From Rhodospirillales bacterium (lineage in GTDB: Bacteria > Pseudomonadota > Alphaproteobacteria > Rhodospirillales > UBA2165), in the NCBI GenBank assembly GCA_028345065.1, contig JAOMCN010000002.1:1-64000 (forward strand): a stretch of DNA of 64,000 nt. Direction: 5' to 3'. The position numbers and the translations under genes were made by a program. Below, piece after piece: positions 36,001 to 36,887 of the stretch; the first letter of the stretch is position 1, and each line of letters starts with the position of its first letter. The notes under the pieces were generated by a model. The model saw only the letters and a program-made list of their open reading frames with translations, searched no databases and was not told the origin of the DNA.

Positions 36001-36887
36001 ACTCCCCAGACAATGGAACTGCCGATTTATTTTTTCGATGCAGTTTTCTCATTGAAACTGATACTGATACCGCCTTAAAACATTTGTCAGACACTGATGA
36101 CGACGAAGTTGATTCTTCCTTAGAGGCGGTCTTAAAACGCAGAGGTGACATGGTTTTTCCAGGCTTTTACGAAACAGTGTGGATTAACGAGGAGTTAGAA
36201 CTTGTCGATGAAACATTTATTACCAATAACCTGATTTGGCAATTTGGAGCACGGAACAGAAACGACGACCAGAGAAACTGGGATATAAAAACCAACGAAC
36301 TTTGGGAAGTGCTATTTTCCAGACTTCCGGATCACAAAAATATATGGAAAGACCTGGTTCTCTCCGTGCCCGGGAAAGGGAGGGAGGCATTGTTAAAAAA
36401 AACACAACTTTCCACTAAATCACAAACGGCTATCGACGACATGCGTGCGATTGATGTGCGACGATTTGCCCAATTAAATACGAGGATTGCAAATCCTGAT
36501 AACCCGTCGATATTATCGGATCAAGAGGCCCTTAAAAGAGAACAGAAAATCTCAAAGTTTCTCGAAAAGGGAATAAAAAACCCCAAAATTATTTTGGACG
36601 CAATTTCAGCGGTCTTTTTGTCCAATCAGGATTTTGGGTCTAAAACTGACATAGTTGAACCTCCAGCCTCGCCTAAACATGTCAAAACGAAAAAAGCCTC
36701 GCCTAAACATGTCAAAACGAAGCGAGCCTCAATCCACCCGGTGGAAGAGATTGTTGGCGAAGTAGTCGAGGAGGCAATCGTCGGCGAGATTGTGAAATCA
36801 ATCATCAATGGCAGTAGTGATGACGAAGAAGAGAAGAACACCGAAGATGGAAAAAACCCCCTTAATTTGAACTCAAGACGCTTATAA
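33072..36887 (+). CDS. dpdE: SNF2/SF2 helicase-like protein DpdE
   Basis: [26 protein letters not shown], '[32 protein letters not shown]'; probable TTG start 33072 preceded by GGGAGGGA (ORF track start 32961). Confidence 0.85.
   Translation: [1271 protein letters not shown]

Follow-up and report, generated by a model that had tools for sequence, protein, structure and literature searches.

A repeat-rich C-terminal tail shared by DpdE and an SF1 helicase encoded at the end of a Dpd operon in a Rhodospirillales bacterium

Introduction

The closest described relatives of the locus reported here are the Dpd restriction operons (7-deazapurine in DNA), in which synthesis genes (dpdA-C) are accompanied by restriction genes (dpdD-K), the latter being ordered E-F-G-H-I-J-K-D in Agrobacterium and Enterobacter plasmids. 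All of dpdA-K are present, with the same restriction gene order, in the window, i.e. the whole stretch of 64,000 nucleotides analysed here, and a Dpd system is predicted from them. Compared with Dpd loci elsewhere, the window differs by an SF1 helicase gene directly past dpdD and by a tail of 80 residues at the C-terminus of DpdE, neither of which was seen in the loci examined.

Tails encoded by minisatellites are known in bacteria, e.g. the AlgP-like lysine/proline/alanine repeats, and basic repeats of this kind resemble histone tails; basic C-terminal tails are also common on helicases. The tails in the window are similar to the AlgP-like ones in consisting of C-terminal tandem basic repeats of variable number, but differ in that a non-repetitive helix-acid segment is shared as well, between two unrelated enzymes of one operon.

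With regard to its motors, the locus can be compared with the ARMADA type II operon, where a RapA/SNF2-like motor, a YprA-family helicase and a GajB-like UvrD helicase are likewise encoded together, according to the excerpted description (PMC12458937). As given there, ARMADA type II has a PglX-like methyltransferase, whereas the window has the Dpd base-insertion genes; its ArmD carries an N-terminal RelE-like domain, and a tail shared by ArmA and ArmD is not mentioned in the excerpt (PMC12458937).

Results and Discussion

The Dpd operon and its surroundings

The assembly (2.2 Mb in 116 contigs) is estimated to be 66.75% complete, and the window originates from one contig. By employing PADLOC and NCBIfam, we found a complete Dpd operon with 11 out of 11 genes on the plus strand (27727-51568), in the order dpdC, dpdB, dpdA, second dpdB, queC, dpdE, dpdF, dpdG, dpdH, dpdI, dpdJ, dpdK and dpdD (Table 1). 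The synthesis genes were matched by PADLOC at E-values of 6e-142 (dpdA, TGT-like), 3e-130 (dpdB) and 8e-91 (dpdC). All of the restriction genes dpdD-K were matched as well, DpdI only weakly (57 bits against an NCBIfam cut-off of 150) but at the expected position in the order. DpdE scored 854.7 bits with NCBIfam NF041062, for which the cut-off is 500; its start codon is uncertain, with homology starting near residue 42-53. The protein identities given in a first-pass annotation of this DNA, namely DpdE and a downstream SF1 helicase, were thereby borne out, the former by PADLOC and NCBIfam and the latter, as UvrD/GajB-like, by PADLOC and Pfam.

Table 1. Positions, in the window, of the Dpd operon, the SF1 helicase gene and the segments of the two tails.
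Feature	Position	Strand	Evidence and remarks
Dpd operon, other than dpdD and the SF1 gene	27727..49318	+	PADLOC, NCBIfam; gaps between neighbours -59 to +36 bp
dpdE: SNF2/RapA-like helicase, its C-terminal tail specific to this lineage	32961..36887	+	PADLOC DpdE, E 1.3e-228
dpdE segment A: TDIVEP and two near-exact 30-bp basic repeats (ASPKHVKTK)	36645..36731	+	75% DNA identity to 52952-53038; charge +6
dpdE segments B and C: hydrophobic helix-like stretch and acidic run	36732..36848	+	72-77% DNA identity to 52769-52952
dpdD	49322..51568	+	PADLOC DpdD, E 3.1e-63; directly upstream of the SF1 gene
SF1 (UvrD/GajB-like) helicase gene	51572..53257	+	Pfam UvrD_C, UvrD-helicase; best PADLOC match GajB, E 9.1e-20
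SF1 tail unit 1: degenerate basic stub A', B and C	52755..52948	+	52755-52801 resembles 52977-53023, 74%
SF1 tail unit 2 (A''): TGIVEP and basic repeats	52951..53229	+	TRF; charge
SF1 C-terminus: WWKRLFGD and stop, aromatic-basic	53231..53257	+	Absent from dpdE; DNA pattern matched nowhere else in the assembly

Several other features of the region were noted. The two dpdB copies (28668-29798 and 31110-32204) lie on either side of dpdA, and two dpdB-like ORFs were also found in several of the compared loci (L238, L241, L242, L245 and L247); dpdB is the gene with the most additional copies in a published Dpd survey (PMC11888242). Just ahead of dpdC, on the minus strand, is a Vut_1/YhhQ-type transporter gene (26979-27530), whose product probably imports a 7-deazaguanine precursor. 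At about residues 815-900, the DpdE of the window has an insertion of some 85 residues in relation to the other five DpdE proteins in the alignment. A Sel1-repeat gene with a terminal Schlafen AlbA_2 domain (24626-26953) looks broken or mis-sequenced, having one in-frame stop (25364-25366) between its two Sel1-repeat halves. Lastly, two ARPP-1 domain paralogues, 63% identical and in opposite orientation, are situated 15 kb apart (1530-2591 on the plus strand and 17196-18224 on the minus strand).

The SF1 helicase gene and its relatives

The SF1 gene starts 3 bp past the end of dpdD, and its product is made up of a core (about residues 1-390) and a tail (about residues 395-561). It resembles GajB and the UvrD/Rep helicases in its SF1 UvrD-like core, with GajB as the top PADLOC match and with DNA helicase II, Rep and PcrA as matches in the PDB. 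It differs from them in that the core is compact (about 390 aa) and misses the curated Rep/UvrD cut-offs, and in that the tail is unique. No GajA nuclease partner was found beside the gene, its upstream neighbor being dpdD and its downstream neighbor, at 53388 (130 bases past the SF1 gene), a 407-aa gene with no PADLOC or Pfam match.

Among 298 genomes of the order and 399 of the phylum, the helicase core was found at E 1e-25 only in the source genome, and matches in viral sequences were weak and generic. The one good homologue found, 387 aa in length and encoded on an Antarctobacter plasmid (L039), ends where the tail would begin; its gene is located between an Hsp70-like gene and an uncharacterised 456-aa gene. 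No close homologue was found at E 1e-6 in 23 Dpd-bearing genomes or records, which yielded three weak generic UvrD matches, none of them with a Dpd gene in the surrounding region. Directly behind dpdD there was likewise no close homologue wherever the downstream stretch was readable, the exceptions to an empty scan being a distant UvrD-type protein in a Deinococcus operon and a generic match on the opposite strand in Microvirga aerophila. On the records covered, the idea that such a helicase regularly belongs to Dpd operons was therefore rejected. The Deinococcus protein, a UvrD-type helicase by Pfam that is annotated as a 3'-5' exonuclease, is encoded near the end of the Dpd operon of Deinococcus taeanensis (L040:29611-31671) and is thus another SF1 helicase inside a Dpd operon, though distant from that of the window.

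Anatomy and homology of the tails

The shared tail occupies the last 80 or so codons of dpdE (36645-36887) and about 165 codons at the 3' end of the SF1 gene (52755-53257). In dpdE, the repeats of segment A were detected by TRF with a period of 30, 1.9 copies and a 100% match, and the acidic run of segment C is followed by a 12-residue end. In the SF1 gene, a 36-bp stretch coding for the helix is tandemly duplicated inside segment C (28 out of 36 bases identical), and the repeats of unit 2 were resolved by TRF into a 30-bp pair and then 6.7 copies of 33 bp. The basic repeats of 30-33 bp in A'' number seven to eight. The segments are thus permuted, with A-B-C in dpdE as against A'-B-C-A'' in the SF1 gene. 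The C-terminal WWKRLF motif of the latter gave no match in a literature search. As the permuted segments are combined with 30-33-bp tandem repeats, the module behaves like a minisatellite, i.e. it duplicates and shuffles. This pattern suggests a unit that was tandemly duplicated and shuffled, presumably by slippage or unequal recombination.

When the end of dpdE (36600-36887) was compared with the window using blastn, three segments of the SF1 gene were recovered, namely 52951-53039 (matching 36644-36732; 75%, E 2.5e-12), 52850-52952 (matching 36759-36865; 72%, E 1.3e-9) and 52769-52833 (matching 36714-36778; 77%, E 1.6e-8). A further repeat piece was found at E 0.001, and the next, unrelated match had an E-value of 0.18. 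The Smith-Waterman score of the tail DNA was 68, compared with 21 +/- 2.6 (maximum 38) in 500 dinucleotide shuffles, while the helix-acid peptides aligned with a score of 88, compared with 32 +/- 6 (maximum 58) in 2000 shuffles. All three matches keep the reading frame of dpdE as well as that of the SF1 gene. Since the match exists at the DNA level and is in frame in both, the tails are homologous rather than convergent; their likeness is due to common descent and not to shared composition.

The first-pass annotation had placed a common C-terminal module on the two helicases and quoted sequences from each; these positions and sequences proved correct, and the DNA resemblance that it had pointed out corresponds to the three segments above. 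Its bounds for the module, on the other hand, needed revision: a tail is indeed shared, but the sharing begins at 36645 and takes in TDIVEP and the basic repeats, and the segments are not arranged alike in the two genes.

That the tails are convergent low-complexity sequence, or an artefact of assembly or binning, is a highly improbable explanation. In its favor, the composition of the tails is biased, and the assembly is incomplete and consists of many contigs. However, DNA matches at E 1e-8 to 1e-12 extend to segment B, which is not repetitive, and to the IVEP segment, and this rules out convergent low complexity; both reading frames also run on continuously from their helicase domains. Moreover, the copies differ by about 25% and are therefore not a single stretch assigned to two positions.

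Distribution of the tail

No third copy was found in the assembly, either by protein or by DNA. A mobile in-frame peptide element spread across the genome, similar to the Rickettsia palindromic elements, was accordingly rejected, given two copies only, in one operon, in an assembly of this completeness.

Beyond this genome, 27 DpdE homologues were collected from plasmids and species genomes of several bacterial phyla, the scan of genome contigs being represented by its best 80 loci. The C-terminus was complete in 26 of these, the remaining one (L043) being cut by a contig end. Among the matches listed, the tail was present in none of the 26 complete homologues, whose C-termini stop shortly past the conserved C-terminal region; in the DpdE alignment, the tail of the window begins where the other proteins end. 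This absence rules out the tail as a trait of the DpdE family, among the matches listed. Tail peptides had no match in plasmids, phages or the PDB, and no viral contigs with dpdE were found in the scan. When other Dpd loci were scanned for shared C-terminal tails of their own, the matches resembled paralogues, transposon copies, antisense ORFs or fragments. The suggestion that the tail might be a docking tag general to Dpd motors is therefore not supported, given both the 26 tailless homologues and the lack of a close SF1 homologue behind dpdD in the loci scanned.

On the same two grounds, the SF1 gene and both tails would, insofar as visible in the sequences compared, be local additions. The source genome is incomplete, the contig scan comprised its best 80 loci, and a single SF1 homologue of useful similarity was found, so relatives of the tail could exist elsewhere.

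Selection, helix and pairing

Selection was assessed on codon-aligned blocks of the two tails (174 bases with 47 differences), against a null in which substitutions fell at random while divergence and transition share were kept as observed. The amino-acid identity (31 out of 58) was at the neutral expectation (29.3 +/- 2.4, P 0.31), the BLOSUM62 sum was slightly above it (P 0.03-0.05), and third positions accounted for 20 of the 47 differences (P 0.12). By the Nei-Gojobori method, Ka/Ks was estimated at about 0.47 on concatenated sequences aligned partly by hand (P 0.015 in a one-sided Fisher test). The evidence for a selected function of the tail is weak and mixed, and the open frame and mild conservatism would fit weak constraint or drift.

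Neither helix had a hydrophobic moment above that of its shuffles at 100 or 102.9 degrees. The maxima over 80-180 degrees were instead significant and fell at 86-88 degrees in both (P 0.006 for one helix and 0.002 for the other), corresponding to a 4-residue period of two hydrophobic and two polar residues; as the helices are homologous, the two peaks are not independent evidence. The term amphipathic helix, used in the earlier description, is in consequence only loosely right, as there is hydrophobic periodicity but no excess of moment at 100 degrees. The coiled-coil pairing of the tails proposed there is not supported, because the period is one of four residues and neither helix has the heptad periodicity of a canonical left-handed coiled coil (100-103 degrees). 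AlphaFold models of the tails, run on single sequences without relatives, had a mean pLDDT of about 37.

These results bear on the main rival to a local duplication, namely a lineage-specific docking tag, in which the helix-acid module would join DpdE to the recruited SF1 helicase, like with like or via a common partner, and would thereby enrol the latter in restriction. The two copies are the only ones in the assembly and both belong to what is apparently one transcription unit; the substitution bias is mildly conservative, the Ka/Ks is about 0.47, and the same significant hydrophobic periodicity has been kept in both helices. The published ARMADA type II operon (PMC12458937) also has a motor set similar to that formed by DpdE, DpdJ and the SF1 helicase of the window. 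Weighing against the tag are the neutral level of amino-acid identity, a periodicity that is inherited and lacks both heptads and an elevated moment at 100 degrees, and the absence, from every other locus examined, of the tail and of a close SF1 homologue behind dpdD. We consider a docking tag unlikely. Quite unlikely, judging from these sequences, is the broader scenario in which the Dpd operon would have recruited a GajB-like UvrD helicase and enrolled it through the C-terminal association module that DpdE has as well, an addressable tail thereby spreading by recombination inside a defence operon and wiring unrelated motors together.

Origin and possible role of the tails

The tails probably stem from a lineage-specific event in which one gene of the operon passed a copy of a repeat-rich, charged module to another; such tails would provide weak tethering at most. 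A C-terminal module consisting of a basic minisatellite linker, a hydrophobic helix of 4-residue periodicity and an acidic run would have been copied, by recombination or slippage, between the 3' ends of dpdE and the SF1 gene, which lie on one strand of the operon at a distance of 16 kb. The copies would since have diverged to a DNA identity of about 72-77%, the SF1 tail being the longer and more repeated one. In favor of this are the in-frame DNA homology far above shuffles in both genes, with two copies in the assembly, and the permuted segment order together with the 30/33-bp and 36-bp repeats, which are hallmarks of a slippage-prone module. The 26 complete DpdE homologues listed and the Antarctobacter SF1 protein, all without the tail, point in the same direction, as do an amino-acid identity at the neutral level and third positions that are not significantly enriched. 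On the other hand, the tails are still open, in frame and alike in composition, the Ka/Ks hints at constraint, and a functional tag would equally result in sharing by two genes of one operon and by no others in the assembly.

With regard to charge, the proximal and distal parts of the SF1 tail have net values of -16 and +21 (the latter including the C-terminus), and the B-C end of dpdE has -8, against the positive segment A. The strongly positive SF1 distal tail and dpdE segment A would suit a further explanation, in which the tails are independent DNA or membrane tethers, i.e. the basic repeats would raise non-specific DNA affinity and WWKRLFGD would be a membrane or protein anchor, the module being reused rather than serving in pairing. 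The repeat number is unequal between the genes, as expected if bulk charge alone matters. However, dpdE lacks WWKRLFGD, has two repeats only and an acidic end, and the charge of its whole tail is roughly balanced. As read from these sequences, independent tethering is rather improbable.

Returning to the duplication, the copied tail is most likely disordered and charged, and perhaps a weak tether. It may act as a flexible charged extension, whose basic repeats would give at most weak DNA or membrane tethering and whose helix and acidic run would give at most weak self or mutual association. The tail would then be an accessory that the motors can do without, and Dpd restriction would not require it.

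If the duplication is accidental, the locus would be a small but clear case of repeat-rich tails moving between neighboring genes. If it is functional, an add-on helicase would have been joined to a defence operon through a tail common to a resident motor, and shared tails may then be worth seeking as a cheap predictor of partners in defence islands.
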